From positions 1 to 46,283 of the forward strand of contig CANKGV010000018.1 in the NCBI GenBank assembly GCA_947481575.1: a DNA stretch of 46,283 nucleotides. Direction: 5' to 3'. The notes beneath the pieces were generated by a model that made no database searches, had not been told where the DNA came from, and saw only the letters and a list, made by a program, of their open reading frames with translations. Positions 5,161-43,246 of the stretch are shown here, in pieces. The position numbers were made by a program, and so were the translations under genes. Origin of the DNA: Alphaproteobacteria bacterium. Lineage in GTDB: Bacteria; Pseudomonadota; Alphaproteobacteria; UBA2966; CAIVPW01. Position 1 is the first letter of the stretch; every line of letters begins with the position of its first letter.

Positions 5161-6702
5161 ATGGCGTGGATGCGTGCGTGGGTGGCGGTGGCCGCCCTGA
5201 GCGGGCTGGCCGGACCGGCCGCCGCCGACGAACTGACGGACTGCCTTAGAACTCCGGAACCAACCTGCCTGGCGGGCCTTGCGACCGATGCGGCGCGCGC
5301 GATGGCGCAGCCGCAACTGGGCGTGCTGTCGCTCAGCACCCTGGCGATTCAGCAGGCGATGGCGGGGGACATCGACGGCGCGCGGGCGACGATGAACGCG
5401 GCGCAGGCGCGGTCGCTGCAGATCTCGATGGCGGACGACCGCGACATGGTGCGGGTGTGGCTGGCGGCGGGCTATGCGATTGCCGGCGACCTGATCGCGG
5501 CGCAGGGGCAGGCCACGGCCATTCAAGAGCCAACCGACGGCGACGAGGCGATGGCGGCGATCGTGCGCGGTGCGTTGCGGCGCGGCGATATGGCGCTGGC
5601 GGAGCATCTGCTGGGCAGCGTCGGGCGCAATCGCATGGGGTCCAGCCGTGTGCTGCTGGCGCAGGCCTATGGGCTGGCGGGGGACTGGGACAAGGCGGCG
5701 GCGGTGGCGCAGGGACTGCTGCCGCGCGACCGCGGGCGGACGGCGGTGTGGATCGCGGGCACGCTGGCAGAGCAGGGGCGCGCGGACGCCGCAGCGCAGC
5801 GGGCCCTGGCGCTGGTGGACGGTGAAGACCTGGACGCGGCGCTGGCGGCGATCGCGGTGGCGATGGCCAACCGGGGCGACCTGAACGGCGCGTATTACAT
5901 GGCGGAGGGCATTCCGACAGCCGAGGCGCGCGACACGGCGCTGGCGGCGTTGGTCGGGGCATTCGCCCGCGCTGGGGACTTTGTTGCGGCGGAGCAGCGG
6001 GCGGCGGGAATTGCGAATGCGGCGGCGCGGCGTGGGGTGCTGGCGCTGATCGCCGGCGCCGAGGTGCGCGGCGGCGATGCGGCGGGGGCGCTGGCGCTTG
6101 CCGGGGCCGGGCCGGACCGGATGGACCGGACCCAGCGCTTGCGCGCGGTGGCGCTGGCGCAGGCGGCGGCGGGCGATGGGGTTGCGGCGCTGGCGGCGGC
6201 GGCGCGGGTAGAAGACGTGGACCGCGCGGCCGTGCTGGCGGAGGTGGCGGGGGTGCTGCTGGATGCGGGCGATGCCGTGGGCGCGCGCCGGGCGCTGGAC
6301 CGGCTCACTGCGGAGCCGGCTTTTGCCCGGGCCAATGCCGGCCTGGTGCGCGCCGTAATGACCGACTATGGGCGCCTGGGTGATGGCGACCGGGCGATTG
6401 CGATCGCCCAGGCGTTGCCGGACAGCACGGCGCGGGCGGAGGCGTTCCTGGACGCGGCGCCGGCGGCGGCGGCGGCTTCGCCCGGTGTGGCGCGGCGGTT
6501 TGTGATCCTGGCGGAGGCGGCGGTGGTACACGGCGCGGCGCGCGGGCCGGGCCAAGGGTTCGACAACGAGACGGCGCAGCGGCGCTTGGCGATCGTGCTG
6601 GTGCGGCTCGGCGATGCGGCCGAGGCGGCGGCGGTGCTCAACGATCTGCAGCCGGAAGCGAGGTTTCAGGCGCTGATGGAATTGCTCACGGCGGCGCAGT
6701 AG
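5161..6702 (+). CDS. Secreted helical-repeat (TPR/SEL1-like) protein, paralogue 1
   Basis: The 513-residue protein has a signal peptide (cleavage after AAADE, about residue 22). It is then made of about twelve units of roughly 35-40 residues with a recurring G-D-x3-A turn (AGDIDGA, RGDMALA, AGDWDKA, RGDLNGA, AGDFVAA, AGDAVGA, LGDGDRA, LGDAAEA), typical of an alpha-solenoid. Near the mature N-terminus a CLx6CLA pair (DCLRTPEPTCLA) is shared with the paralogue at 7294 and probably forms a disulfide. Start ATG 5161 has GGAGA upstream. Its position at the head of the quinoprotein/cytochrome block suggests a periplasmic scaffold or assembly role; this is inference. No enzyme motif is seen. Confidence 0.75.
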   Translation: MAWMRAWVAVAALSGLAGPAAADELTDCLRTPEPTCLAGLATDAARAMAQPQLGVLSLSTLAIQQAMAGDIDGARATMNAAQARSLQISMADDRDMVRVWLAAGYAIAGDLIAAQGQATAIQEPTDGDEAMAAIVRGALRRGDMALAEHLLGSVGRNRMGSSRVLLAQAYGLAGDWDKAAAVAQGLLPRDRGRTAVWIAGTLAEQGRADAAAQRALALVDGEDLDAALAAIAVAMANRGDLNGAYYMAEGIPTAEARDTALAALVGAFARAGDFVAAEQRAAGIANAAARRGVLALIAGAEVRGGDAAGALALAGAGPDRMDRTQRLRAVALAQAAAGDGVAALAAAARVEDVDRAAVLAEVAGVLLDAGDAVGARRALDRLTAEPAFARANAGLVRAVMTDYGRLGDGDRAIAIAQALPDSTARAEAFLDAAPAAAAASPGVARRFVILAEAAVVHGAARGPGQGFDNETAQRRLAIVLVRLGDAAEAAAVLNDLQPEARFQALMELLTAAQ

Positions 6703-6715
6703 CGCGGCGCGCAAA

Positions 6716-6745
6716 TTGACTTGGGCGCGAGGGCGGACCTATCGT
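6716..6745 (+). promoter_or_regulatory. Candidate sigma70-type promoter of the 6793 lipoprotein gene
   Basis: TTGACT at 6716-6721, an 18-bp spacer and TATCGT at 6740-6745 lie in the 90-bp gap after the repeat-protein gene. Five of six -35 bases and four of six -10 bases fit the consensus. A strong GGGAGGGG ribosome binding site follows before the ATG at 6793. Confidence 0.5.
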
Positions 6746-6792
6746 CGCTCAGCCGGTGTCGGGGGGACGCCGGTTCCCTGGGAGGGGCGTTC

Positions 6793-7281
6793 ATGACAGC
6801 GATTCGGTTTGCCGCAGGTGCACTGGTATTGGCGCTGGGGGCATGCGGACAGCCGGCGGTGCCGGCGGCCAATGTCGACGGGCCGATCAAGTCGGTCGAC
6901 GTGGCAGGCCACAAGGTGGTCCTGGACGACGGCAAGCGCGGCGCGTCCGTGACGCTGCCGGCCACCATCGACATGGCGCAGTTCACCGTCGGGACGCGGG
7001 CGCGGCTGGAGCACTCGCCGAACCCGGGTGGCGACGTGACCATCGCGGTCTATCCGACCCCGGTTAAGGAAACGGCGACTGTCGTCGACATTAATACGGC
7101 GACCCACATCGTCACACTGAGCGACGGCACCAAGATGCCGGTGCCGAAGCCGAGCGACATGGCGTTCATGCGCATCGGCATGCCGATCACCATCGACAAA
7201 ACGCCGAAGCCGTACACCGCCGTGGTGGTGAAGGGTGCCGGAACCGTGCCGACACCCGGGGTTAGGCCGGCCGCGAAGTAG
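6793..7281 (+). CDS. Small lipoprotein with two beta-repeat units
   Basis: The 162-residue precursor ends its signal in the lipobox LGAC (Cys 18). The mature part holds two similar units: one near residues 33-50 (IKSVDVAGHKVVLDDG) and one near residues 98-115 (VVDINTATHIVTLSDG), each followed by a Pro-containing loop. This resembles the small beta domain of DUF1344-type proteins, but the match is by eye and uncertain. ATG 6793 is well supported by GGGAGGGG. It sits between the two secreted repeat proteins and probably works with them in the envelope. Function unknown. Confidence 0.7.
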   Translation: MTAIRFAAGALVLALGACGQPAVPAANVDGPIKSVDVAGHKVVLDDGKRGASVTLPATIDMAQFTVGTRARLEHSPNPGGDVTIAVYPTPVKETATVVDINTATHIVTLSDGTKMPVPKPSDMAFMRIGMPITIDKTPKPYTAVVVKGAGTVPTPGVRPAAK

Positions 7282-7293
7282 CGGGCGTTCTCT

Positions 7294-7335
7294 GTGCGCG
7301 CTCTCCGCGCGACCCCAGTGCGCGCTCTCCGCGCG
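7294..7335 (+). repeat. In-frame 24-bp direct repeat at the start of the paralogue-2 gene
   Basis: GTGCGCGCTCTCCGCGCG occurs at 7294-7311 and again at 7318-7335, a 24-bp period that keeps frame and repeats the residues MRALRA / VRALRA. It doubles the start-codon choice and lengthens the signal-peptide n-region. Confidence 0.85.
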
Positions 7336-8817
7336 GCGGTTGTTCTGCTGGCGGTGGCGCCGGCGGCGGCGCGGGCGCAGGACTTGCTGGGCACGTGCCT
7401 CGGCACGCTGGCGCCGGTGTGCTTGGCGCAACTGGCGCGCGATTCGGCGCAGGCCCAACCCGACCCCAACGATGCGATGCTCGGCCTGGCCTATCTAGGA
7501 TACGTGCAGGCGCGTGGCGGCGACCGCGCGGGGGCGACCGTCAGCCTCGATGCTGCGGCACGCGCGGCCGAGTCCATCAAAGACGCCGTCGAGCGCGACT
7601 TCGCGCGGACGTGGGTCGCGCCCATGTACGCGGCCGCCGGCGATATGGCGGCGGCGTTGGCCCTGGCGGATGCGATCGGGGCGGCGCGCGACCGCGATGA
7701 CGCGCTGGCGGCGATCGTGGGGCAAGCGATCGAGCGTGGCGATATCGCGGGCGCCGAGGGCGTGGTCGCGCGGGCCAGGGCGGGCGAGCTCGCGGCGGCG
7801 CGGGTCGCGCTCGGCGGGGCTTACGCAGCGCGCGGCGAGTTCGAGCGGGCCGCGGCCGTGGCGCGCGGGCTGACGGCGGACCAGCGCGGCGCACTGCTGG
7901 CGGACCTGGCTAAGCACATGGCCGACGCGAACCGCACTCACGAGGCGATCAAGCTCGCGCTCGAGCTGGCGGACGGGCCGGAGTTGGACGCGGCGATGGC
8001 GGCGCTGGTGGCCAGCATGGCCGAGCGGCTGGTGCTGGGCGACGCGCGCGTCGTGGCAGCGGCGCTGACTGCGCCGGGACCACGCGACACGGCGTTTGCG
8101 GCGCTGGCGGCGGCGGAAGCCGGCACCGGGGATTTCACCGGCGCGGTGGCGGACGCGGGCCGGGTGGTGGATCAGGTCGGGCGGCTGCGGGCGCGCGAGG
8201 CAGTTGCGCAGGCGCGGGCACAGAGCGGCGACGTGACGGGCGCCGTGGCGTTTGCGCTCACCGAGGACTACGCGCAGTACCGGGCGATTCTGTTGGGCGC
8301 GGTGGCGAAGGTGCAGGCGGAGGCGGGCAACGTCGCGAACGCGCTGGTTACGGTGGCACGGATCGACGTGGTGCTGGATCGCAACCGGTTGATAGCGGAC
8401 TTAGGCAAAGCCCGCCTCGACGCGGGCGACAAGGCAGGGGCGCGGCGCTGCCTGGAATTGCTGACCGCCGGCGCGCCGTTCGCCGACGCGGCGGTGGTGG
8501 GCTTTGCGCGGCTAGGCGAACACGAGCGCGCGCGGGATATAGCGGCATCGTTGCCCGACGGCATCGTGCGGGCGTGGGCGTTGCTCGACGCGGCGCGGGC
8601 CGTGAAGGCGCCGGACGCGGCGCGCACGTATCTGGGCTTGGCAGTGGTGGAACTGGAGCGCGATCCCAACGCTTATGGCCGCGACGACGCGGCGCGGGTG
8701 CTGGCGGTGCAGTGGGCGCGCGCCGGTGATGCCGCGCAGGCGGCGGCGCTGATCGCCGGGCTGTCCGCGAGCGGGCGGGTGATGGTCTTCACCGATTTGC
8801 TGCCGCAGGGGCGCTGA
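7294..8817 (+). CDS. Secreted helical-repeat (TPR/SEL1-like) protein, paralogue 2
   Basis: The 507-residue protein is a paralogue of the 5161 product. It has a signal peptide ending in ARAQ, the CLx6CLA pair (TCLGTLAPVCLA), then about twelve helical units with G-(D/E/N)-x3-A turns (GGDRAGA, AGDMAAA, RGDIAGA, RGEFERA, TGDFTGA, SGDVTGA, AGNVANA, AGDKAGA, LGEHERA, AGDAAQA). The start is ambiguous: GTG 7294 and GTG 7318 lie in the two copies of an in-frame 24-bp repeat, and the second alone gives a complete 20-residue signal peptide. Neither has a clear ribosome binding site. The stop is followed one base later by the cytochrome gene, so the two form an operon. Function unknown; a periplasmic scaffold role is inferred. 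Confidence 0.75.
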   Translation: MRALRATPVRALRAAVVLLAVAPAAARAQDLLGTCLGTLAPVCLAQLARDSAQAQPDPNDAMLGLAYLGYVQARGGDRAGATVSLDAAARAAESIKDAVERDFARTWVAPMYAAAGDMAAALALADAIGAARDRDDALAAIVGQAIERGDIAGAEGVVARARAGELAAARVALGGAYAARGEFERAAAVARGLTADQRGALLADLAKHMADANRTHEAIKLALELADGPELDAAMAALVASMAERLVLGDARVVAAALTAPGPRDTAFAALAAAEAGTGDFTGAVADAGRVVDQVGRLRAREAVAQARAQSGDVTGAVAFALTEDYAQYRAILLGAVAKVQAEAGNVANALVTVARIDVVLDRNRLIADLGKARLDAGDKAGARRCLELLTAGAPFADAAVVGFARLGEHERARDIAASLPDGIVRAWALLDAARAVKAPDAARTYLGLAVVELERDPNAYGRDDAARVLAVQWARAGDAAQAAALIAGLSASGRVMVFTDLLPQGR

Positions 8818-8818
8818 C

Positions 8819-9331
8819 GTGGCGCGGCTTTGGATCGCGGCAATGGTAGCGGTGCTGGCGGCGGCGCCAGCGGCGGCCGAAGAGTTCGATCCCGCCCAAG
8901 TTGATGCGGGGCGGGCGATCTATCAGACCACCGGCGCCAATTGCGAGATGTGCCATGAGTGGACCGGCACCGGGCGCAATCCCAACGGACGGTACAGCGA
9001 AGTGATGGCGGGCGGGCCGTCGCTGGTGGCGTCGACCATGGACCGGGCGGCGATGATCGAAATCGTGTCGTGCGGCAAAATGGTCGGCTGGGGCGTGATG
9101 CCGCAGTACCGCAACGACGCGTGGACGCCGGCGTTGCGCTGCGGGGGCAAGGTCGCCGCCGACCGCGCGCCGGGGGAGGCACCGGAGGCCGGGCTGCTGG
9201 GGCTGGCGGCCGCGCAGGTCGAAGCGGTGGTCACCTATGTGCGGGCGGTGTACCAGGGCCAGCGCATGACGCTCGCCAACTGCCAGAAATACTTCGGGGA
9301 TAAGTCGAAGGCGTGCGATCTGTACCGTTGA
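8819..9331 (+). CDS. Periplasmic four-Cys monohaem cytochrome c, paralogue 1
   Basis: The 170-residue precursor has a signal peptide ending in AAA (about residue 20). It has one haem-c site, CEMCH (Cys 42, Cys 45, His 46), and a likely Met ligand in GWGVMPQY. Four more Cys (VSCG, LRCGG, LANCQKYFG, SKACDLYR) match the family described as methanol-metabolism-related four-Cys cytochrome c (TIGR03874, from memory). It is a likely electron acceptor for a PQQ dehydrogenase. GTG 8819 starts one base after the stop of the repeat-protein gene. A close paralogue follows the second PQQ dehydrogenase at 14515. Confidence 0.85.
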   Translation: MARLWIAAMVAVLAAAPAAAEEFDPAQVDAGRAIYQTTGANCEMCHEWTGTGRNPNGRYSEVMAGGPSLVASTMDRAAMIEIVSCGKMVGWGVMPQYRNDAWTPALRCGGKVAADRAPGEAPEAGLLGLAAAQVEAVVTYVRAVYQGQRMTLANCQKYFGDKSKACDLYR

Positions 9332-9335
9332 ACGT

Positions 9336-9388
9336 CCGGCTCCCCGGCCCCGAGGGACCCGGGGGAGGGAGTTGGGGCGGGGAGCCGG
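9336..9388. terminator. Bidirectional hairpin between convergent genes
   Basis: CCGGCTCCCC at 9336-9345 pairs perfectly with GGGGAGCCGG at 9379-9388 across a 33-nt GC-rich loop that can itself fold. It lies between the cytochrome stop (plus) and the superoxide dismutase stop (minus). There is no clear U tract. Confidence 0.5.
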
Positions 9389-9396
9389 GTCGAGCC

Positions 9397-10014
9397 CTAC
9401 GAAACTTTCAAGAAACGCTGGCCGGCAACGGTCCAGAAGCGCTGTTCGGCGACCGACCAGTTTAGGTTGCGGAAGAACGCGGCGATGTAGTCCGCCTTTT
9501 TCGCCGGCGCGTAGTCGACCATGTAGGCGTGTTCCCACATATCCATGGCAAGCAGCACCGGCAGACCGGTGAGCTGGCCGTGCTCGTGGTCGTCGACCCA
9601 CGCGTTGATGAACACCTGGAGCTTGGCGTCGAAGTACAGGACGGTCCAGCCGATGCCGCGCCTCATGCCGAGGGCCTTAAACTGGTGCTCCCACGCCTCG
9701 TAGCTGCCGAACTGTTGGGCGAGCGCCATCGCGAGCGGACCGACCGGCACCGCAGGGGCGGGCTGACCCTCCCACTGGGCGAAGTAGATCTCGTGCATGC
9801 GCATGCCGTCGAATTCGAACGCGAGACGACGATGCACTTCGGCCAGCGCATAGGCATTGCGCTCGGGGTCCTGCATCAGGTCGCCCTCGGTGTCGCGCAA
9901 CTTGTTCAAGTTGGTGACGTAGCCGGCATAGAGATCGAGGTGCACGGCGAGCTGCGCCGGCGAGATGCCGTCGAGCGCCGGCAGGGCGAAGGTCTGCTTG
10001 GGATAGCTTTGCAT
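9397..10014 (-). CDS. Superoxide dismutase, Fe/Mn family
   Basis: The 205-residue protein converts superoxide to hydrogen peroxide and oxygen. All four metal ligands of the family are visible: His 25 (VHLDLYAGYV), His 74 (MHEIYF), Asp 158 and His 162 (in DMWEHAYMVDY). The usual His-His pair at the first ligand is here His-Leu, a mild departure. There is no signal peptide, so it is cytoplasmic. The start at 10014 gives a normal-length protein; the longer upstream frame has no SOD similarity. It is convergent with the cytochrome gene and divergent from the first PQQ dehydrogenase gene. Whether it uses Fe or Mn cannot be told. Confidence 0.92.
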   Translation of the reverse strand: MQSYPKQTFALPALDGISPAQLAVHLDLYAGYVTNLNKLRDTEGDLMQDPERNAYALAEVHRRLAFEFDGMRMHEIYFAQWEGQPAPAVPVGPLAMALAQQFGSYEAWEHQFKALGMRRGIGWTVLYFDAKLQVFINAWVDDHEHGQLTGLPVLLAMDMWEHAYMVDYAPAKKADYIAAFFRNLNWSVAEQRFWTVAGQRFLKVS

Positions 10015-10309
10015 GACCCGGACGCTATCCGGGCGCCGCACGTGTGCACTATCGCGCATGGGGCGGACACGGTCGCGGGGTAGCCTGCGGACTGGGGCCG
10101 CTTGTGACCACAGGACCCGAGAAGGTCTAACCATTTCAGTATGTTGGTGGGTGACCATGCCGTGGGCCGCGCTTTGCGGTTTCGCGGCGCGGATGCAGTC
10201 CGTCGCACGGTGGTAAACTGCTCGCGCCCAACCGTTGGAGAGCGGGACGGCACGCACCTCCGGTTTCGGAGGGCATTTGTGGACCAATCCATTTTTGGGA
10301 GCGAATTTG
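10015..10309. other. Divergent intergenic region upstream of the first PQQ dehydrogenase
   Basis: The 295-bp gap separates the superoxide dismutase (minus) from the PQQ dehydrogenase (plus). A TAAACT hexamer near 10214 could be a -10 for the plus gene, but no convincing -35 lies at the right spacing. A GGGAG ribosome binding site precedes ATG 10310. No gene was recognised here. Confidence 0.4.
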
Positions 10310-12202
10310 ATGACACTGTTCAAAAGAACGTCGGCATCGCTGTTGGCGATGGCCTGCGTGGCGGGCGTTTCGCAAAATGCGCTCGCGAACGACGACGTGC
10401 TGGCGAAGTCGAAAGACCCGGCCAACGTCGTGATGCCGAGCATCACCTATAACGGCTGGAACTACAGCACGCTGAACCAAATCACGTTGGATAACGTGAA
10501 GAACCTGACGCTGGCCTGGACGATGCAGATCGGCATCATGGACAGCCACGAAGCTTCGCCGCTCGTGGTGGGCGATACGATGTACATCGCATCCCCGAAA
10601 CCGAACTACATCTACGCGCTCGATCTGACCAAAGACGGCGTGATCAAGTGGGAGTTCCGTCCCACGATGGACGTGGCGTTGGCCACGGCCCAGACCTGCT
10701 GCGGTCAGCAGACCCGCGCGCTGTACTACGCCGAGGGCAAGATCTTCTACGCGACCCTCGACGGCCAAATCATCGCTTTGGACGCGAAGTCCGGTGAGCA
10801 GCTGTGGCGCAACGTCGGCGCGGACATCGTGCGCGGCGAAGGCATGGCCGGCAACGGACTGATCGTCCACAACCTGTTCTTGGTGGGCAACGAGGGCGGC
10901 GAGCGTGGCGTACGCGGCAAGTCTCACGCCTACGACATCAACACCGGCAAGATGCAGTGGACCTATTACAACATGGGTCCGAACAATGAGGTCGGCATCG
11001 GCCCGAAGTTCAAGCCGTTCTACGCCGACGACAAGATCCCGAACCCCGCGCTGGATAGCTGGTTCGGCGACTCGTGGAAGCACGGCGGCGGGACCAATTG
11101 GGGCTACTACACCTGGGATCCCGACACGGACATCTTCTTCTACTCCACCGGCAACTGCGGCCCGTGGAACCCGGACTACCGCCGCGAGTGGGGCAAGGTC
11201 GACCTCGACGCGAACGGCGGCTTGAAGAGCTTCAAGAACAACTACTGCGCGTCGCAGATGGCGCGTAACGCCACCACCGGCGAACTGATCTGGGCGTACA
11301 ACATCACCCCGCAGGATATGTGGGACTTGGATGAGCCGCTGATCACCCCGCTGGTCGATCTGACCATCGGCGGCGCGGTGCGGAAGACCGCGATGAAGTT
11401 CGCCCGCGACGGCATGTTCTATGTTTGGGACCGCAACACCGGCGAAATGCTCATCGAACCGTGGATGGCCGAGTACCAGGACCTGAACCACGGCGTCGAC
11501 ATGAAGACCGGCCGGCCGATGTACAACATCGACAAGATCGCCTTCACCAATGTCGAAGACCGCCGCAAGTACACCCAGGCCGATCCGCGCGGGGACACGA
11601 AGCCCCAGGGCTATACCGGCACGGAAATCGTGTATTGCCCGGGCACGGCAGCCCGTAACTGGGAAAACGATGCGTGGTCGCCGCGCACCGGTCTTTTGTA
11701 CACGCACTCGGACACCAGCTGCGCGACGCAGGTGGTGACCACCGGCGAGTACAAGCCGGGCGAGGGCTACACCCTGCAACGCTCCGCCGGTGGCGCGGCC
11801 GCACAGGCGCTAGGCATGGACGGCAAGCCGACGACCGTGTTGTCGCGCCTGCAGGCCAACGACCCGATCAACCGTAAGAACGTGTGGAGCAAGCCGTACA
11901 ACGAGAACACCCGCGTGCCGGCGATGGCCACCGCCACGGACATCGTGTTCCACGGCAACAGCGCCGAAGGGCTGTTCGAGGCGCTGGACGCCAAGACCGG
12001 CAAGGCGGCGTGGACATTCCGCACCGGTTCGCGGTTCAACCAGTCGCCGATCAGCTACCTCTATGGTGGCAAGCAGTACATCGCGATCATCTCCAGCTCG
12101 CGTATCGGCGACACTGCAGTCGCCAACAACGCGCCTGCGGATGCCGCGGCACGCTACCGCCGTCAGGGTGTGACGCTGTACGTGTTCAAGCTGCCCGGCT
12201 AA
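10310..12202 (+). CDS. PQQ-dependent alcohol dehydrogenase, lanthanide-type active site, paralogue 1
   Basis: The 630-residue periplasmic quinoprotein has a signal peptide (cleavage after ALA, residue 26) and eight beta-propeller blades. It resembles MxaF/XoxF methanol dehydrogenases in length and N-terminus. Vicinal Cys 130-131 form the PQQ-stacking disulfide. Predicted metal ligands are Glu 198 (ERGVRG), Asn 282 (TGNCGPWN), the catalytic Asp 339, and Asp 341 in WDLD. An Asp two residues after the catalytic Asp is the known mark of lanthanide-dependent enzymes (Ala in Ca-type MxaF). Substrate is probably a primary alcohol, not provable here. A GGGAGCG ribosome binding site supports ATG 10310. 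It is followed by its own terminator, then by a paralogue. No xoxG/xoxJ-type gene is beside it. Confidence 0.9.
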   Translation: MTLFKRTSASLLAMACVAGVSQNALANDDVLAKSKDPANVVMPSITYNGWNYSTLNQITLDNVKNLTLAWTMQIGIMDSHEASPLVVGDTMYIASPKPNYIYALDLTKDGVIKWEFRPTMDVALATAQTCCGQQTRALYYAEGKIFYATLDGQIIALDAKSGEQLWRNVGADIVRGEGMAGNGLIVHNLFLVGNEGGERGVRGKSHAYDINTGKMQWTYYNMGPNNEVGIGPKFKPFYADDKIPNPALDSWFGDSWKHGGGTNWGYYTWDPDTDIFFYSTGNCGPWNPDYRREWGKVDLDANGGLKSFKNNYCASQMARNATTGELIWAYNITPQDMWDLDEPLITPLVDLTIGGAVRKTAMKFARDGMFYVWDRNTGEMLIEPWMAEYQDLNHGVDMKTGRPMYNIDKIAFTNVEDRRKYTQADPRGDTKPQGYTGTEIVYCPGTAARNWENDAWSPRTGLLYTHSDTSCATQVVTTGEYKPGEGYTLQRSAGGAAAQALGMDGKPTTVLSRLQANDPINRKNVWSKPYNENTRVPAMATATDIVFHGNSAEGLFEALDAKTGKAAWTFRTGSRFNQSPISYLYGGKQYIAIISSSRIGDTAVANNAPADAAARYRRQGVTLYVFKLPG

Positions 12203-12224
12203 TCCCCGGTTGTACGAACGCTTT

Positions 12225-12250
12225 GGGGGGAGGCCGATCGGCCTCCCCCC
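12225..12250 (+). terminator. Rho-independent terminator of the first PQQ dehydrogenase
   Basis: A perfect 26-nt palindrome (GGGGGGAGGCCGA and its complement) lies 22 nt after the stop and is followed by TTCTTTCTT. It is a strong intrinsic terminator and means the second PQQ gene needs its own promoter. Confidence 0.85.
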
Positions 12251-12359
12251 TTCTTTCTTCCGATCTCGCATCGGGAACAGGTGTGTGTGGGGGGGCCACC
12301 GCGGCCACTGGCCGCGACGATAGACAGACTGAAAAGTCCGCTAAATCAGCCACTTGCGA

Positions 12360-12392
12360 TTTCACGCAATTGTGCTGCCCCTGTGATAAAAT
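12360..12392 (+). promoter_or_regulatory. Possible promoter of the second PQQ dehydrogenase
   Basis: In the 274-bp gap, the relatively AT-rich stretch 12340-12392 holds TTCACG at 12361-12366 and an extended -10-like TGTGATAAA at 12382-12390, with GATAAA at 12385. Spacing is 18 bp. The match is weak, but the local base composition stands out from its surroundings and a promoter is required after the upstream terminator. Confidence 0.3.
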
Positions 12393-12476
12393 GTCGCAGC
12401 GCGTCCGTCTGAGGCGGCGTCGCACGCCCCGGGGAAATGAGGGGCGGTTGCAACAAATCACTGGGAGGCAAACTGA

Positions 12477-14375
12477 ATGACACTATTCAAAGGAACAGCA
12501 GCGTCGCTGTTCGCGATGGCCTGCGTTGCAGGCGTATCACAGACAGCGGTCGCCAACGACGACGTCCTGAAGCTGTCGAAGGACCCGGCGAACGTCGTGA
12601 TGCCCAGCATCACCTACAACGGCTGGAACTACAGCCAGTTGACCCAGATCACGCAGGACAACGTTAAGAACCTGACGCTGGCCTGGACCATGCAGATCGG
12701 CATTCTCGACCAGCACGAAGCATCGCCGCTGGTCGTGGGCGACACGATGTACATCGTGTCTCCGAAGCCGAACTATGTGTACGCCCTGGACCTGGCCAAA
12801 GACGGCGTCATCAAGTGGGAATTCCGTCCCACGATGGACGTCGCCCTGGCGAGCGCCCAGACCTGCTGCGGCGCGCAGACTCGTGGTCTGTACTACGCCG
12901 AAGGCAAGCTGTTTTACGCGACCCTCGACGGCCAGGTGATTGCGCTCGACGCGAAGTCGGGTGAGCAGTTGTGGCGCAACGTCGGCACGGACATCGTCCG
13001 CGGCGAAGGCATGGCCGGCAACGCGCTGGTTGTCCACAACCTGTTCATTGGCGGCAACGAAGGTGGCGAGCGCGGCGCCCGCGGCAAGGTGCACGCCTAC
13101 GACATCAACACCGGCAAGAACGCCTGGACCTACTACAACATGGGTCCGAACAACGAAGTCGGCATCGGCCCGAAATTCAAGCCGTTCTACGCCGACGACA
13201 AGATCGCCAACCCGGCCCTCGATTCCTGGTGGAAGGATTCGTGGAAGACCGGCGGCGGCACCTCGTGGGGCTACTTCACCTGGGATCCGGACGTCGACAT
13301 CTTCTACTACTCGACCGGCAACTGCGGTCCGTGGAACGCGGATTACCGTCGTGAGTGGGGCAAGATCGACCTGGACGCCAACGGCGGCCTGAAGTCGTAC
13401 AAGAACAACTACTGCGCATCGCAGATGGCGCGCGATGGCAAGACCGGCGAACTGATCTGGGCGTACAACATCACCCCGCAAGACCAGTGGGACCTTGATG
13501 AGCCGCTGATCACCCCGCTGATCGACCTTACGATCAACGGCGCGGTGAAGAAGACCGCTGTGAAGTTCGCCCGCGACGGTTACTTCTACGTTTGGGACCG
13601 CGTCACCGGCCAAATGTTGATCGAACCGTGGATGGCGGAGTACCAGGATCTGAATACGGGCATCGACATGGCCACTGGCCGTCCGAAGTACCGGATCGAA
13701 CAGATCATGTTCACCAGCGTGGAAGACCGCCGCAAGTACACGCAGTCGGATCCCCGCGGCGGCGGCGCCACGAAGCCGACCGGCTACACGGGCACCGAAG
13801 TCGAGTACTGCCCGGGCACCGCGGCCCGCAACTGGGAGAACGACGCTTGGTCGCCCCGCACCAATCTGCTGTACACGCACTCGGACTCGACGTGCGCCGT
13901 GCAAATCATGATCACCGGCGAGTACAAGCCGGGTGAAGGCTACACTCTGCGTCAGACCGCTCCGGGTGCAGTTGCGGTCAACAAGGGCCTCGATGGCAAG
14001 GCGACCACGGTCGGTTCGAACCTGCGCGCCAACGACCCGCTCGGCCGTAAGACCGTTTGGAGCGTGCCGTACAACGACACCGGCCGTGTAGCAGTGATGG
14101 CTACTGCGACCGATCTGTTGTTCCACGGTAACCAGGCGGAAGGCAACTTCCAGGCGCTCGATGCCAAGACCGGCAAAGTGCTGTGGTCGTTCCGCGCGGG
14201 CGCCCGTTGGGGCCAGTCGCCGATCAGCTACTCGTACGGTGGCAAGCAGTACATCGCGATCATCGCTTCGTCCGCGGCGGCCAACACGGCCGTAGTTGCG
14301 AATGCGGCGCCGGATAACGCGAACCGCTACCGCCGTTCGGGCTCGACGCTGTACGTGTTCAAGCTGCCCGGCTAA
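12477..14375 (+). CDS. PQQ-dependent alcohol dehydrogenase, lanthanide-type active site, paralogue 2
   Basis: The 632-residue periplasmic quinoprotein is a close paralogue of the preceding gene (most of the first 240 residues identical by eye). It keeps the signal peptide, the Cys 130-131 pair, Glu 198, Asn 282, catalytic Asp 339 and the lanthanide-type Asp 341 (QWDLDEPLI). Differences cluster on the surface and in the last 130 residues, where this copy has extra residues (for example GGGATKPTGYTG). A good GGGAGG ribosome binding site precedes ATG 12477. The gene ends in an intrinsic terminator, and a four-Cys cytochrome follows. Retention of all active-site residues in both copies suggests different substrates or expression, not redundancy. 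Confidence 0.9.
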   Translation: MTLFKGTAASLFAMACVAGVSQTAVANDDVLKLSKDPANVVMPSITYNGWNYSQLTQITQDNVKNLTLAWTMQIGILDQHEASPLVVGDTMYIVSPKPNYVYALDLAKDGVIKWEFRPTMDVALASAQTCCGAQTRGLYYAEGKLFYATLDGQVIALDAKSGEQLWRNVGTDIVRGEGMAGNALVVHNLFIGGNEGGERGARGKVHAYDINTGKNAWTYYNMGPNNEVGIGPKFKPFYADDKIANPALDSWWKDSWKTGGGTSWGYFTWDPDVDIFYYSTGNCGPWNADYRREWGKIDLDANGGLKSYKNNYCASQMARDGKTGELIWAYNITPQDQWDLDEPLITPLIDLTINGAVKKTAVKFARDGYFYVWDRVTGQMLIEPWMAEYQDLNTGIDMATGRPKYRIEQIMFTSVEDRRKYTQSDPRGGGATKPTGYTGTEVEYCPGTAARNWENDAWSPRTNLLYTHSDSTCAVQIMITGEYKPGEGYTLRQTAPGAVAVNKGLDGKATTVGSNLRANDPLGRKTVWSVPYNDTGRVAVMATATDLLFHGNQAEGNFQALDAKTGKVLWSFRAGARWGQSPISYSYGGKQYIAIIASSAAANTAVVANAAPDNANRYRRSGSTLYVFKLPG

Positions 14376-14399
14376 TCCGCCGTTCAGCCTGCGCGTTTG

Positions 14400-14424
14400 G
14401 GGGGAAGGCCGTTGGCCTTCCCCC
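14400..14424 (+). terminator. Rho-independent terminator of the second PQQ dehydrogenase
   Basis: An 11-bp GC-rich stem (GGGGGAAGGCC and its complement, loop GTT) lies 24 nt after the stop and is followed by TTTCTTTTT. It resembles the terminator after the first copy, as expected from tandem duplication. Confidence 0.85.
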
Positions 14425-14514
14425 TTTCTTTTTGGGCCCACGCCGCTCGCGCAAAGTTGGATGGTGCGCGAGCGTGCCGGGCCCTACGGTGAGCGTTCAC
14501 CGGGAGAAACCCAG

Positions 14515-15039
14515 ATGAATTCACGATGGATCGCGGCGGCACTGGCGGGGGCACTGATGCTGACGCCTCTGGCCGCGGGGGCCCAGGCGGTGGACCAAGC
14601 GCAGGCCGATGCCGGCATGGAGTTGTTCAAGCCCACCGGCGCCAACTGCGAGATGTGTCACGCATGGACCGGCGGCGGCCGGTGGAACGACACCCCGTTC
14701 AGTACCGTGCCGGCAACGGGGCCATCGCTGATTACCAGCACCATGACCCGTGCGCAGATGATCGAAGTGATCGGCTGCGGCTCGGTGCGTGGGGATGCGG
14801 TGATGCCGCGCTACCGCGGCGACGCGTGGACGCAGCAATTCCCGTGCTACGGCAAGGTCGGCACTAGCGCCACCGCGGACGAGCGTCCCATCCCGGGTGA
14901 GCGGCAACTTACCGCTGCGCAGATTGAGGCGATGGTCACCTTCATCCAGGCCGTATACCAGGGCAAGACGATGACGCTGGCGAACTGCGAGAAGTACTTC
15001 GGGCCGAAGTCGAAGGGCTGCAACCTGCTGCGCAAATAG
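14515..15039 (+). CDS. Periplasmic four-Cys monohaem cytochrome c, paralogue 2
   Basis: The 174-residue precursor has a signal peptide ending in AGAQA and one CEMCH haem site (Cys 45, Cys 48, His 49). A Met ligand is likely in GDAVMPRY, and four further Cys (VIGCG, FPCYG, LANCEKYFG, SKGCNLL) match the cytochrome at 8819. The two share most of their C-terminal half (AVYQGxxMTLANCxKYFGxKSKxC). ATG 14515 is supported by GGGAG. Its place right after the PQQ dehydrogenases makes it their probable electron acceptor; a terminator between them suggests separate transcription. The stop is 10 bp from that of the convergent membrane-protein gene. Confidence 0.85.
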   Translation: MNSRWIAAALAGALMLTPLAAGAQAVDQAQADAGMELFKPTGANCEMCHAWTGGGRWNDTPFSTVPATGPSLITSTMTRAQMIEVIGCGSVRGDAVMPRYRGDAWTQQFPCYGKVGTSATADERPIPGERQLTAAQIEAMVTFIQAVYQGKTMTLANCEKYFGPKSKGCNLLRK

Positions 15040-32349: not shown

Positions 32350-33159
32350 CTACTTACGGACCGCGGGGGTTTCGATCAGCAGGCCGCGGCCGCGCCACGC
32401 CACGTAGAGTTCCAGATTCAGGTATTCCTCGGAGCCCATGGCGAAAGGCTCGGCGCGCATCGACGTGTTGCACCATTGGAACATGCGGTGAGTCGAGCCC
32501 ATCGACCGCCAGATGAGGCGATAGAACGGGAAGCCGTTGATCTGGCCCTGGCTGATGGTGTCGCCGCGCAGCTTGCCGCCGGCGCGGTCGTCGTGGCACT
32601 GGGCGCAGCTGAGGTCGAGCTGGCCACGGCGGGTGAAGAAGAACTCCTTGCCCCGCTCGAAGAACGGCGCGGCGGGGCCGGCGATCACCGGCTCGCGGGT
32701 CAATCCGCGCGACTGGTAGGTGATGTAGGTCGTGAGCGCCAATAGTGCGTCGGACTCGTATTCGAGGGGCGCGGCGCCCATGCGCTCGGTGCGCTCGCGG
32801 TTGATCACCAATTCGAGGTTGATGACACCGCCCTTTCTTTCGTCGAACCGCGGGTACTTGGCGGCGACGCCTTTCATGGTCTGCTCGGCATTGCCGTGAC
32901 AGGCCGCGCACGACTGGCCTTTGGGGCCGTCGATCTTGTTCCAGATCGCCTTGCCCTGATCGATGGCGAACATGCCCGGGTTGAGGAACTCGTCATCCTG
33001 CAACGCGCGGGTTTGGGTGCCCATGTAGAAGTACCCGGACTTGCGGTCTTCGACCTGGAACTTGGCGAGATTCGGTGCGCCCTGGGCCGTCGCCAGGGCA
33101 GGGGCCAGCAGGCCGAGTGCCGCCAGCAGGACGGCAGCGAGGATGCGCCGCGCGGTCAT
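32350..33159 (-). CDS. soxA: Sulfur-oxidation dihaem cytochrome SoxA
   Basis: The 269-residue precursor is secreted (signal to ATAQ, about residue 26). It has two haem-c sites, CAACH (Cys 84, Cys 87) and CAQCH (Cys 185, Cys 188), and the catalytic Cys 230 in QWCNTSMRAEPF, which is persulfidated in known SoxA. With SoxX it attaches the sulfur substrate to the SoxY Cys. Its ATG overlaps the soxX stop (ATGA), so soxXA is translationally coupled. All key residues are kept, so the enzyme should be active. Confidence 0.92.
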   Translation of the reverse strand: MTARRILAAVLLAALGLLAPALATAQGAPNLAKFQVEDRKSGYFYMGTQTRALQDDEFLNPGMFAIDQGKAIWNKIDGPKGQSCAACHGNAEQTMKGVAAKYPRFDERKGGVINLELVINRERTERMGAAPLEYESDALLALTTYITYQSRGLTREPVIAGPAAPFFERGKEFFFTRRGQLDLSCAQCHDDRAGGKLRGDTISQGQINGFPFYRLIWRSMGSTHRMFQWCNTSMRAEPFAMGSEEYLNLELYVAWRGRGLLIETPAVRK

Positions 33160-33617
33160 TTCAGGGTCAGCAGGTAGGCGATGACGTCTTCGACGTCCTG
33201 CGGCTTGTAGATCGTCTTGCCGACATACTGCTGCTGCACCCGGGTCAGTCCATCGACGCGGTAATAGGCGGGCATGATGGTGTCCGGAGTGATCAACTTC
33301 GGATTTACCAGGCGCAGCCGCAACTGCGCGGCGGTGTACTTGCTGCCGGGGTGCTCCATCACCGGAGCTAGGTTGCCCTGGTCCGGTTGCTCCGGCAGGT
33401 CGGGCATGTTGTGGCAGATCAGGCAGGTGGCGTTGGTGGCGTCGGTTACCACTTGTTTGCCGCGCGCGGGATCGCCCGGTTGGGCGGTCAACGGCGTTGG
33501 GATGCCGTTGCCGACAACCTCGATCGGCACCAGGGCATCCTGCGCCACCGCGGTGACCGCAGCGGCCGCTGCCGCGGCGGCCGTTCCCAATGCAATGAAG
33601 CGTAGCCAACCAAACAT
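33156..33617 (-). CDS. soxX: Sulfur-oxidation monohaem cytochrome SoxX
   Basis: The 153-residue precursor has an alanine-rich signal peptide (to about residue 25), a haem site CLICH (Cys 65, Cys 68, His 69) and a Met ligand in TPDTIMPAYY. It is the electron-transfer subunit of SoxXA. VEDVIAYLLTLK ends the protein in the usual way. A hairpin at 33668-33696 separates it from the upstream fccB, so it may have its own promoter in the 50 bp between. Confidence 0.9.
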   Translation of the reverse strand: MFGWLRFIALGTAAAAAAAAVTAVAQDALVPIEVVGNGIPTPLTAQPGDPARGKQVVTDATNATCLICHNMPDLPEQPDQGNLAPVMEHPGSKYTAAQLRLRLVNPKLITPDTIMPAYYRVDGLTRVQQQYVGKTIYKPQDVEDVIAYLLTLK

Positions 33618-33667
33618 CGAACTTTGCCGCTTGCCCAGAAGTAAGCCGGCCGGAACTGTAGCGCGTC

Positions 33668-33696
33668 CCGGCCCTTCCCGTGTGGGGAAGGGCCGG
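33668..33696 (-). terminator. Hairpin after fccB, before soxXA
   Basis: CCGGCCCTTCCC pairs with GGGAAGGGCCGG over 12 bp with a 5-nt loop. It lies 18 nt after the fccB stop on the minus strand. No strong U run follows, so it may be a partial terminator or an RNA-stability element between fcc and sox genes. Confidence 0.55.
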
Positions 33697-33713
33697 AGGC
33701 GGCTAACGGACGA

Positions 33714-34991
33714 TCAGCCCCAGATGTCGGCGCTGATGCTCGCGTACCAGCCGCGAGCGTAGTCGGCTTCCTGCTTACGGAACGCCGCCGGAGCACCGGC
33801 CGGGCTAACACCGCCCGTGTTCGGAACTGCGGCGATGTTGCCGTCGGCGCCGACGGTGTAGACGTTGGCGACCGAGATGCCGTAGTCGGGTGCGACCAGG
33901 CTGTAGCAGGTGTTGATGTAGGACGGGCTCTCCGCCGGCTTGTTGGCCAGCATGTTGACGATAGCCGCGGCCGCGATCTTGCCCTGGTTGTTGGCCGAGA
34001 AGCCGGACTTCGGCATCGCGCCCGCCAGGATGGCATCACCGACCAAGTGAATGCCCGGCACCTTCTTCGATTCGAAGGTCTTGGCGTCCACTGCACACCA
34101 GTCGCCATCCGCGAGGCCGGCGAGGTCAACGACCGTGCCCGAACGCTGTGGCGGGATAACGTTGACGACGTCGCCCTTCACCTTGTCGAACTCGGTTGCG
34201 ACCGTCATGGCCGCGAGGTCGACCGACACCGTCTTGCCGCCGCCCTTGGAAGGCGGACGCCATTCGATCATTCCCGGGTAGAGCTCGGCCCACGCGGCGG
34301 TGAACAGGCCCTGCTTGGAGAAGGCTTCCTTGGCGTCGACGATGATGATCTTGGAGCGCGGCTTCGCCTGCTTGAAGTAGTAGGCGATCTGGCTCGCCCG
34401 CTCGTATGGGCCCGGCGGGCAACGGAACGGGTTGTCCGGCACCGCCATCACGAACGTGCCGCCGTCCGGCATCGCCACGAGCTGGTTGCGGAGCAGGGTG
34501 GTCTGCGCGCCCGCCTTGAAGGCGTGTGGCATCTTTTCCGTGGCGGCTTCGTTGTAACCCTGGATCGCGCTGAACTTGAAGTCGATGCCCGGCGAGATCA
34601 CCAAGCGATCGTACGGGATCGGCGCCGATGCGCCGCCGACCGCAACGGTCTTGGCGGTGGTGTTGATGCCGGTAACGGTGCCGGTCACCAGGGTGACGCC
34701 GGCGGCCTTGAGGCCGTCGAACGACTTGGTCACCGAAGCCAACTGGTTTACGCCGCTGAGCACGTAGTTGCTGAACGGGCAGGTGATGTAGTTGGGGTTG
34801 GAATCAATCAGCGTCACGGCGACGCCGGCGCGGCGAAGGTAGCGGGCCACGGTGGCGCCGCCGAACCCGCCGCCGATCACGACGACGCGGCCGGCCTGTT
34901 GCGAAAACGCCTTGCCGGTGGCGACGACGCTCGCCGCGGCAGTTGCGCCGGCGAGCTTGAGCAGGTCTCTGCGAGTGTTCTGATAGGTCAT
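33714..34991 (-). CDS. fccB: Flavocytochrome c sulfide dehydrogenase, flavoprotein subunit
   Basis: The 425-residue precursor has a Tat signal (RRDLLKLAG) and an FAD-binding Rossmann fold (VVVIGGGFGGATVARYL, about residues 36-52). The redox-active Cys pair is visible as Cys 71 (TCPFSN) and a Cys near 368 (INTCYSLVAPDYG). PHAFKAGAQTT and HLVGDAILAGAMPKSGFSANNQG are further family stretches. It oxidises sulfide (or sulfane sulfur) in the periplasm and passes electrons to the adjacent cytochrome. SoxF is an equivalent name when in a sox locus. It lies 16 bp after the cytochrome gene. Confidence 0.9.
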   Translation of the reverse strand: MTYQNTRRDLLKLAGATAAASVVATGKAFSQQAGRVVVIGGGFGGATVARYLRRAGVAVTLIDSNPNYITCPFSNYVLSGVNQLASVTKSFDGLKAAGVTLVTGTVTGINTTAKTVAVGGASAPIPYDRLVISPGIDFKFSAIQGYNEAATEKMPHAFKAGAQTTLLRNQLVAMPDGGTFVMAVPDNPFRCPPGPYERASQIAYYFKQAKPRSKIIIVDAKEAFSKQGLFTAAWAELYPGMIEWRPPSKGGGKTVSVDLAAMTVATEFDKVKGDVVNVIPPQRSGTVVDLAGLADGDWCAVDAKTFESKKVPGIHLVGDAILAGAMPKSGFSANNQGKIAAAAIVNMLANKPAESPSYINTCYSLVAPDYGISVANVYTVGADGNIAAVPNTGGVSPAGAPAAFRKQEADYARGWYASISADIWG

Positions 34992-35007
34992 GTCGGCCTC
35001 CCCGCCG

Positions 35008-35325
35008 CTACTTCCAGTTGGCCGCGACGTACTTCGCAATCGCCGCGACTTCGGCGTCGGAGTAGCCCTGCACGAGCCGGGTCATCACCGTTGCCGTCGG
35101 CGTTGCGTCGGTCGCCTTGCCGGCCTTGAACACCGTCAACTTCTGGGCGAGTTCGGCCTCGGTCTTACCGGCAATTGCCGGAATCGGACCTGGGCTCTTG
35201 CCACCCGGGCCATGGCACGCCGCGCACTGGTTCACCAGATTTGCTGGTGCGGTTTCATCGGCTTGGGCGGCGGCGGAAAATGCCACCACACAGGCGGTCG
35301 CCAATACGATTGTTCGCAGGGTCAT
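35008..35325 (-). CDS. Monohaem cytochrome c, probable FccA/SoxE-type subunit
   Basis: The 105-residue precursor has a signal peptide (to AQADE, about residue 23), one haem site CAACH (Cys 34, Cys 37, His 38) and a Met ligand in TATVMTRL. GYSDAEVAAIAKYVAANWK is the usual C-terminal helix. Small size and direct coupling to fccB make it the probable cytochrome subunit of flavocytochrome c. Known FccA proteins may be mono- or dihaem; this one is monohaem. An AT-rich gap upstream with two CGTTAG direct repeats may hold the promoter. Confidence 0.82.
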   Translation of the reverse strand: MTLRTIVLATACVVAFSAAAQADETAPANLVNQCAACHGPGGKSPGPIPAIAGKTEAELAQKLTVFKAGKATDATPTATVMTRLVQGYSDAEVAAIAKYVAANWK

Positions 35326-35443
35326 GTTCGCAGTTCCCTCCCTCTGCTCGGCTGCTGAGATCCGTTACGAATGCGAAAAGTGGACGTCACGGACCTTTGC
35401 GTAAGTACCTAACGAATTCAGCTAACGATCCCTGTCTATCAAT

Positions 35444-36295
35444 TTATTCTGGCAGGGACTTGGCGACGCGGAAACCGGTGTCGTTGAGGCGCTTCTTGGC
35501 TTCCACGCCCTCGCGGAATCCACCGATCGTGGTCCACTCGCTGCGCCAGCCGCCGCCCCGGGTGACGTGCAGGTTGCAGTCGCCATCCAGCCACGCGGTG
35601 CCGTCCCGCGGTGCCTTCTCGAGAGAGCGATTGTAGCAGTCATCGACCCATTCGGCGGCATTGCCGTACATGTCGAACAGCCCGAACGCATTGCCCGTGA
35701 ATCGGCCGACTGGAAACACCTTCAGGTCCTCGATGTGGCCCATCGTGGAATTGCCGCCGCAGTCTTGGCAATTGGCGCCGTTGGCGTTCAGGTTGGCCTT
35801 GAGCCACAGGGTGGAGGTGTTCGGGCCGCCGGCGCGCGCGGAGTATTCCCACTCCGCCTCCGTCGCTAGGCGGTAGGGTTCACCAGACTTCCTGCGCAGC
35901 CATTCGACGTAGGCGTCGACGTCGTCCCAACTGACGCACACCACAGGTTCCGTATCCGCTTGTTTGGTCGGGAAGGCGTTGTCCCAGGTGGCGGCCGGAT
36001 TGTCCTTGGGACCGAGATCGCGCCACTGGGTGCAGCCCGCAATGGCAGCCCCGGTGTCGGCAACGAAGGCGCGGAATTGGCCGACGGTCACTTCGTACTT
36101 GGCGATGGCAAACGGCCGCTTGATCTCGACCGGGAACGGAGTGCCGACGGCGGTATCGCTACGCTGGAACTTCCCAGGCGGAATCACCACGACCGTGGGG
36201 CATTGGTCGCAGTCCTTGATCTCGCGGATCTGAGCATGGGCCGACGTGGTGAAAGCCAGTAAAGCGAGCACCATCGCAACGACAATTCGCGCCAT
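35444..36295 (-). CDS. Secreted SUMF1/FGE-domain protein lacking the catalytic cysteines
   Basis: The 283-residue precursor has a signal peptide (to AHAQ, about residue 22) and one SUMF1 (formylglycine-generating enzyme-like) domain. It carries VVIPPGKF, FAIAKYEVTVGQFRAFV, YRLATEAEWEYSARAGG, NAFGLFDMYGNAAEWVDDCY and RGGGWRSEWTTIGG. The region that holds the active Cys pair in true FGE reads GGGWRSEWTTIGGFREG, with no Cys. It is therefore unlikely to make formylglycine and more likely binds a ligand or supports a partner. It sits inside the sox/fcc locus. Other Cys (DCDQCP, NCQDCGG) may form disulfides or bind metal. Confidence 0.82.
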   Translation of the reverse strand: MARIVVAMVLALLAFTTSAHAQIREIKDCDQCPTVVVIPPGKFQRSDTAVGTPFPVEIKRPFAIAKYEVTVGQFRAFVADTGAAIAGCTQWRDLGPKDNPAATWDNAFPTKQADTEPVVCVSWDDVDAYVEWLRRKSGEPYRLATEAEWEYSARAGGPNTSTLWLKANLNANGANCQDCGGNSTMGHIEDLKVFPVGRFTGNAFGLFDMYGNAAEWVDDCYNRSLEKAPRDGTAWLDGDCNLHVTRGGGWRSEWTTIGGFREGVEAKKRLNDTGFRVAKSLPE

Positions 36296-36433
36296 CTGTA
36301 CCCCCCCTACCGGACGAAGCGCGCCGCCCGCGCCCGCACGATACCCCGGTCGCCACCCCCGCTCAACGGCAGGGCCAAGGGCCGGGGGGCCTATTCGCGA
36401 TCAGTTGATCGAAAGAAAAGCGAGGCGCCGCCG

Positions 36434-36781
36434 CTAGTTAACGTTGGCGTTCATGATGCGGCGGTTGCGCGCGGTGCATTCGTACCCGAATGCCTTGCGC
36501 TTGCCGGTACGGGTGTCGACGCGGGTGAACTTGCCGCCGATGCGTACCAGTTGCGGATTGCCCTGGTACCACTGGGTGTCAGGGGCCCAGATCAGATCGG
36601 CCGGCTCCATCAAGTCGGCAAAGACCTCGTCCTGGCAGCTTGAGAACTCGTAGCCGAAGTCGCCGACGCCTTCGCGCACGCGGTTCGAAAGGAACTGGTA
36701 CCAAGCCGCATAGGCGGCGCCGGCGATCACGATCGCGGCGATCCCAGCTAAGACAAAGCGATTTCCGAACAAGCTACGCAC
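36434..36781 (-). CDS. Small single-TM protein of the sox locus, unknown function
   Basis: The 115-residue protein has one N-terminal membrane segment (about residues 8-30) and a soluble part with two Cys (SSCQDEVF, YECTARN) that could form a disulfide outside the membrane. GTG 36781 is preferred because GGAGG lies 5 nt upstream; a GTG two codons earlier is possible. It sits between soxZ and the SUMF1 gene, on the same strand. No family was recognised. A role with the SoxYZ-like carrier or the SUMF1 protein is inferred from position only. Confidence 0.6.
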   Translation of the reverse strand: MRSLFGNRFVLAGIAAIVIAGAAYAAWYQFLSNRVREGVGDFGYEFSSCQDEVFADLMEPADLIWAPDTQWYQGNPQLVRIGGKFTRVDTRTGKRKAFGYECTARNRRIMNANVN

Positions 36782-36835
36782 ATGCACCTCCGCGGCGCCG
36801 GACTAGGTGGGGCCGTGAACCCGAGAAGGAAGTTC

Positions 36836-37156
36836 TCAGACGACGGTGATGTTACGGGTGGCGGTGGTGACGGTGCCGTCGTCATCGATCCACGCGAAAT
36901 CGATCGGGCCCGACGTCGTCGCCTTGATATTGAACGAGTAGTAGGGGTTCGACGCCTGCGCGGGACGCAAGTTCGCGTGGAACACTTCCTCGCCGTTATA
37001 CTTGACGATGAACGTGTTGATGATGCGGCGCGGGATCAACTTGCCGTCGCGGTCGTAGTTGTGACCGCTGTCCATCGGATGATCGATAACCGTGCGGATC
37101 GGGATGATCCCGCCCTTTTCGGCGGTCTCGGGCACTGAGATCTTCGGATCTGCCAT
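36836..37156 (-). CDS. soxZ: Sulfur carrier partner SoxZ
   Basis: The 106-residue protein has the immunoglobulin-like SoxZ fold: KGGIIPIRTVIDHPMDSG, RRIINTFIVKYNGEEVFHANLRPAQASNPYYSF (given in parts), GPIDFAWIDDDG. It pairs with SoxY to hold the sulfur substrate during periplasmic oxidation. No signal peptide, as is usual; it is exported with SoxY. It starts 9 bp after the soxY stop. Confidence 0.9.
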   Translation of the reverse strand: MADPKISVPETAEKGGIIPIRTVIDHPMDSGHNYDRDGKLIPRRIINTFIVKYNGEEVFHANLRPAQASNPYYSFNIKATTSGPIDFAWIDDDGTVTTATRNITVV

Positions 37157-37165
37157 CGCCGTCTC

Positions 37166-37768
37166 CTACTTGCCTTCCTGCACGACATAGCCGCGCAGTT
37201 CGTCCGGTACCGTCAGCCCGCGCATTTCTTGGCGCTTCAGGTATTCCTCGTTCTCGACCGCGAAGATGTCCTCGACGCACGCGCCATACGTTACGAGCAC
37301 GTTGAACTGCGTGCCCCAGCGCGAATTGTCGGAGTACTGCGCAACCGCATAGACGTTTTGGGTGCGCGCGAGACGAATACGCGTGCCGATGGAAACGTTG
37401 CTGCCGGACAGCGGGTTCAGGATGTAGTCAGCGCCCAAGATCTCGGGATTGCCGGGCACAAACATCATGATGCGCTTTACGAACGTGCCATCCGGCATCG
37501 GTGCTTCGGCGTTGAACGTGATCGGCACGGAGTTGCCCGTTTCGGCCAGCACCGGCAGGTCCAGCGTAATGCGGCCCTGGTTGATCGCGCCTTCACCCAT
37601 CGCGGTCTTGATGTAGGACAGCGAGTTGTTGGGGAACGCGATCGTGTCGGACTTGGCAAACTGCGGGACCAGCGTCACCGTCGCCACCAACCCGCCTGCA
37701 CCAAGCAGGAACATCCGCCGGTTGAGCGGCCGGGGCGCCATCAAGGTTTGGCTCGGCACAGCGTTCAT
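37166..37768 (-). CDS. SoxY-related sulfur carrier with non-canonical C-terminal arm
   Basis: The 200-residue precursor has a Tat-like signal (RRMFLLGAGG, about residues 17-27) and the SoxY beta-sandwich (VPITFNAEAPMPDGTFVKRIMMFVPGNP). Canonical SoxY ends in GGCGG, whose Cys carries the substrate on a swinging arm. Here the equivalent region reads VTYGACVEDIF, with a single Cys (164), followed by 36 more residues. A family of 'SoxY-related AACIE arm' proteins (TIGR04487, from memory) shows a similar change. ATG 37768 is chosen; ATG 37741 gives a shorter signal. It heads the soxYZ, small-TM and SUMF1 genes. Whether it carries the same sulfur species is unknown. Confidence 0.85.
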   Translation of the reverse strand: MNAVPSQTLMAPRPLNRRMFLLGAGGLVATVTLVPQFAKSDTIAFPNNSLSYIKTAMGEGAINQGRITLDLPVLAETGNSVPITFNAEAPMPDGTFVKRIMMFVPGNPEILGADYILNPLSGSNVSIGTRIRLARTQNVYAVAQYSDNSRWGTQFNVLVTYGACVEDIFAVENEEYLKRQEMRGLTVPDELRGYVVQEGK

Positions 37769-40205: not shown

Positions 40206-40219
40206 TGACTGTCCTCCCC

Positions 40220-43232: not shown

Positions 43233-43246
43233 TGACTGTCCTCCCC

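Follow-up and report, generated by a model that had tools for sequence, protein, structure and literature searches.

Does the block of paralogous genes at positions 5161-15039 of the window form one dedicated periplasmic quinoprotein module, as the first-pass annotation supposed, or do separate units lie side by side? The window, i.e. the whole stretch of 46,283 bp that was analysed, is the entire contig C18 of an alphaproteobacterial genome (G000; 2.45 Mb, 98.7% complete), the only genome by which its genus is represented, and the host is an uncultured, probably freshwater alphaproteobacterium. The gene order and content first reported for the region were confirmed in all parts and coordinates, and are listed here together with three hairpins.

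5161-6702, plus strand: SOL1, 513 aa, predicted secreted TPR/PPR-like alpha-solenoid with N-terminal CLx6CLA; weak TPR_19 match
6793-7281, plus strand: LIPO, small lipoprotein with lipobox LGAC; DUF1344 (PF07076) barely above the gathering score
7294-8817, plus strand: SOL2, 507 aa, paralogue of SOL1 (39%); stop 1 bp before CYT1
8819-9331, plus strand: CYT1, predicted secreted c-type cytochrome of class I; a single CxxCH and four more Cys that are invariant
9332-9396, no strand assigned: strong stem-loop (-45.7 kcal/mol, z -3.3) where CYT1 and SOD converge, probably a terminator
9397-10014, minus strand: Fe/Mn superoxide dismutase (SOD) by family scan, convergent to CYT1
10310-12202, plus strand: PQQ1, PQQ alcohol dehydrogenase of putative lanthanide type (WDLD) that retains the CC pair and the catalytic E/N/D/R
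12225-12250, plus strand: terminator-like hairpin with T tract, 3' of PQQ1
12477-14375, plus strand: PQQ2, second PQQ dehydrogenase, 81% to PQQ1 and 91% to a copy on contig C22 of G000
14399-14425, plus strand: terminator-like hairpin with T tract, 3' of PQQ2
14515-15039, plus strand: CYT2, c-type cytochrome and paralogue of CYT1 (54-55%)

The region probably comprises several transcription units and not one operon, because the SOD gene is convergent and hairpins follow PQQ1, PQQ2 and CYT1. The hairpins 3' of the two dehydrogenase genes, with GC-rich stems of 11-12 bp and a T tract, had by far the longest stems in a terminator scan which overall gave 9 sites versus 6.4 expected. Tight packing was restricted to LIPO-SOL2-CYT1, with gaps of 12 and 1 bp, and the SOD gene is probably outside the unit. 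No homologue of the DUF1344 lipoprotein was found when the seven other genomes of the bacterial family were searched. The earlier statement that every main part is doubled holds in that the pairs exist, but they diverge unevenly (81% identity for PQQ, 54-55% for CYT and 39% for SOL). A single block duplication was ruled out as the source of the doubling because of this unequal divergence, and because PQQ2 groups with the C22 copy, to which it is nearer than to PQQ1.

Both dehydrogenases belong to the methanol/ethanol PQQ dehydrogenase family according to family scans (PF01011 above cut-off), and their match to TIGR03075, the profile of the family that includes XoxF, reached E ~1e-127 and 425 bits, under the cut-off of 480. 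In aligned columns, the adjacent Cys-Cys and the catalytic Glu, Asn, Asp and Arg are present in PQQ1 and PQQ2, together with the lanthanide motif D-x-D, in which a second Asp stands two residues past the catalytic Asp (WDLD in both). With XoxF, which also provided the closest PDB entries by sequence, the two enzymes share the fold family, these residues, a signal peptide and a partner cytochrome, whereas their identity to XoxF-like plasmid references is 36-40% and WDLDEP stands where several references have WDYDG. Unlike the XoxF system with its XoxG and XoxJ, the locus has a different cytochrome and, by family scans, no XoxJ gene beside PQQ1 or PQQ2. On the basis of the conserved residues, the clade of PQQ1 and PQQ2 may be assigned to the lanthanide-type PQQ alcohol dehydrogenases, which would imply the use of a lanthanide and an alcohol substrate. 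A further likeness to XoxF was seen beside other copies of the clade: in G003, G004, G006 and some other members, a PQQ-associated ABC transporter and a MoxJ-like protein are encoded near the enzyme, in part of these clusters accompanied by a beta-propeller and a NosR-like protein, and a similar cluster (transporter, MoxJ-like protein, beta-propeller) is located in G000 on contig C22, outside the window.

A single scan across 84,980 species genomes returned 53 PQQ-clade loci, nearly all true clade members, from MAGs of lake Alphaproteobacteria, Bauldia and Acidobacteriota, from UBA3584, and from the isolate Roseitranquillus sediminis, the lake habitat of the hosts being taken from record titles. 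In a maximum-likelihood tree, 38 clade rows were monophyletic (support 100/100) and stood apart from seven XoxF-like references, which omit part of XoxF1-5. About 13 PQQ-dehydrogenase loci are present in G000, at least five of them clade members; its contigs C3, C20, C21 and C43 break off inside PQQ-dehydrogenase genes, so collapsed repeats may hide further copies. No characterised clade member was found, and the literature, which offered background on XoxF clades and CcmI, returned nothing on the PQQ clade or the solenoids. The clade spans Alphaproteobacteria and Acidobacteriota with the lanthanide signature kept and with its own cytochrome family, and its genes have multiplied, in places as tandem arrays, in bacteria that have small genomes and apparently live in lakes; lanthanide-type alcohol oxidation in fresh water would thereby extend beyond its known range.

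Several deviating enzymes were observed. A long-branched yet conserved sub-clade of the sister genus (L126, 10001-11809; L127, 4441-6291; L129, 10001-11815; L135, 10001-11845) no longer has the catalytic Asp (the motif reads WGLD, WGFD or WSLD), Asn or Arg, while the frames are open, and its members are likely inactive paralogues. The Bauldia enzymes at L130 and L131 are devoid of the Cys pair, Asn and Arg. The pqqC gene was not found in G000 at its 98.7% completeness and is present in all but one of the seven other genomes of the family, which would point to either PQQ import or an assembly gap. G000 also carries a second, very divergent PQQ-dehydrogenase set (L188, L191, L192, L195 and L197) with recurring satellite genes, which encode pentapeptide-repeat proteins (a CPGCDL-like motif is present in several) and secreted "ACGTNGGPP" proteins.

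The best-supported link of the finding is the proximity of the cytochrome and dehydrogenase genes: seven of the eight CYT family members in G000 are located at most 2 kb from a PQQ-dehydrogenase gene (P ~7e-10 under random placement), and in the sister genomes 3-4 CYT genes share contigs with PQQ genes. Family scans identified CYT1 and CYT2 as class I cytochromes c, and the AlphaFold2 model of CYT2 (pLDDT 81.4) contains the core of a class I cytochrome c, with structural matches to class I cytochromes at Z ~9 and rmsd ~2 over ~85 residues (VIA-align). The initial description as four-Cys cytochromes was correct for four invariant extra Cys, but each protein has six in total when the CxxCH pair is included. 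Like the cytochromes cL XoxG and MxaG, the CYT proteins are secreted class I c-type cytochromes tied to PQQ dehydrogenases, and they differ from these by the four extra Cys, two of which are in the C-terminal NCxxYFG...C tail. Foldseek gave weak matches of CYT2 to cytochrome cL (7c90, 2c8s); cytochrome cL was absent among the VIA-align structural matches listed for CYT2, which does not speak against a relationship, and the CYT family had no significant PDB sequence match to it. The CYT family is likely the electron partner of the PQQ enzymes.

As for the solenoids, CLx6CLA is matched exactly by SOL1 (CLRTPEPTCLA) and SOL2 (CLGTLAPVCLA), as had been noticed, and their position outside named families was upheld by family scans, which gave a weak TPR match only and no NCBIfam match. 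The N-termini are signal-peptide-like as judged by eye. The Cys pair is invariant in nine relatives as C-x6-C or C-x7-C, and represents the sole Cys common to all. AlphaFold2 folded SOL2 (pLDDT 89.9) into an all-helical superhelix of 29 helices, for which the best structural matches by Foldseek and VIA-align were PPR/TPR proteins in general, LbcA among them. The SOL proteins are accordingly modelled as predicted secreted TPR/PPR-like alpha-solenoids, the N-terminal hairpin of which is probably stapled by a disulfide of the Cys pair. The secreted TPR-type superhelix and cytochrome-related gene neighbours are features shared with CcmI/NrfG and LbcA, whereas the N-terminal Cys-pair hairpin is not, and neither SOL1 nor SOL2 matched the CcmI profile (TIGR03142). 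That SOL represents a missing CcmI was ruled out, as a genuine CcmI, the sole match, is encoded on contig C7 of G000.

Full-length SOL relatives were found in one bacterial family only, i.e. in G000 and in all five genomes of the sister genus, and were absent from the two other genera of the same family. Beyond the family, a search of 385 genomes of the class returned only partial, repeat-type matches; these were rejected as true relatives, being generic repeat matches; of those inspected, one only had the N-terminal Cys pair, a secreted Roseitranquillus protein. A plasmid search with SOL2 gave no match. Outside the window, where genes were called with a simple codon-model caller, in four sister genomes SOL either overlaps hemF or comes shortly after it, and is divergent from petABC, and in the fifth (G007) it lies near a molybdopterin gene. 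SOL is not needed at the hemF/petABC locus, since this locus is present in G000 and G001 without it. The SOL tandem of G005 (L085) has no adjoining cytochrome, and SOL adjoins CYT in one genome only, G000.

The expected co-occurrence of the solenoids with the PQQ clade was not borne out at locus level: SOL was found at none of the 53 clade loci outside the window, with flanks of up to 10 kb and some contigs short. When PQQ-clade genomes were searched whole, five of six gave no SOL match and the sixth a partial match only. SOL as a widespread partner of the clade was ruled out by these loci and by the narrow SOL distribution. The contrary expectation, of homologues spread widely and free of links to PQQ enzymes or cytochromes, proved true only in part, as SOL is never beside PQQ in the five sister-genus genomes, but the spread is narrow and heme or cytochrome neighbours are kept.

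Resting on what is directly shown, namely the parts and their residues, the clade, the linkage of CYT to PQQ genes, and the distribution and predicted fold of the solenoids, our preferred reading is that of two adjacent units and not one module; taken as a whole, with its electron path and solenoid role, we consider it slightly better than an even bet. The first unit would be a periplasmic lanthanide-type alcohol-oxidation set of PQQ1, PQQ2 and CYT2, together with CYT1, in which the dehydrogenase with PQQ and a lanthanide would oxidise alcohol, and the six-Cys class I cytochrome would take up the electrons and presumably deliver them to the terminal oxidase. CYT2 sits after the PQQ2 terminator, which counts against its co-transcription with PQQ2. 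The dehydrogenase clade is amplified in the lineage, and the set is probably one of its several satellite copies. The undescribed alcohol-oxidation unit of the first-pass annotation thus retains its putative lanthanide-type clade and its PQQ-linked cytochromes, whereas the solenoids find no support as a component of it.

The second unit would consist of LIPO-SOL2-CYT1, perhaps with SOL1. Its solenoids may be periplasmic TPR/PPR-like peptide-binding scaffolds, which would most likely bind apo or holo c-type cytochromes and aid their assembly or docking, in addition to CcmI and not as its substitute. This cytochrome role, considered by itself, is put forward tentatively, with somewhat less than even confidence. 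It is favoured because cytochrome-related neighbours recur (CYT1 at 1 bp, hemF, petC) and because there is a precedent in the TPR proteins CcmI/NrfG, for which a part in apocytochrome interaction has been proposed (PMC3601427). Against it, a general apocytochrome chaperone is not lacking in G000, where CcmI is present.

The main rival to a cytochrome scaffold is that SOL serves as a general-purpose TPR adaptor in the periplasm, e.g. for envelope proteases or wall enzymes in the manner of LbcA for CtpA, with the PQQ and cytochrome genes as incidental neighbours. The unspecific TPR/PPR fold matches, LbcA included, and the SOL gene contexts that differ among genomes are consistent with such a role, which nevertheless demands that the heme and cytochrome neighbours (CYT1 at 1 bp, hemF in overlap, petABC divergent) be coincidence, yet these amount to only two independent contexts; we regard this explanation as doubtful. 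If the idea of a cytochrome-related scaffold is extended, so that the C-x6/7-C solenoids would constitute a new protein family for cytochrome c assembly or docking in the periplasm, with one pair recruited to an electron carrier of PQQ dehydrogenases and an alcohol-oxidation system thereby equipped with a cytochrome-handling scaffold of its own, the proposal becomes unlikely. The solenoid family offers a testable idea on extra cytochrome c assembly factors. Least probable is a single dedicated quinoprotein module, doubled in its parts, with the solenoids as scaffold or assembly factors for the PQQ enzymes: the genes are adjacent in G000, the six SOL-bearing genomes of the family carry the clade while the two without SOL also lack it at E<=1e-60, and R. 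sediminis has both the clade and, unlinked, the secreted C-x6-C repeat protein, but the co-occurrence within the family is explained equally well by common descent, the transcription units are likely separate, the solenoids of the sister genus lie away from PQQ genes, and the clade is present without SOL in the Bauldia, Acidobacteria, UBA3584 and Baikal genomes as well as at all 53 loci.

Other redox genes were identified elsewhere in the window. Sulfur-oxidation genes occupy positions 32350-37714 and encode SoxA, SoxX, SoxZ, a SoxY-related protein and a sulfide-quinone-reductase-like flavoprotein. The genes of a molybdenum hydroxylase large subunit and its 2Fe-2S subunit are present as tandem copies (37977-40675 and 41004-43702) with ~87% DNA identity over 2.8 kb, and are adjoined by a c-type cytochrome-like gene at 44095-45393.
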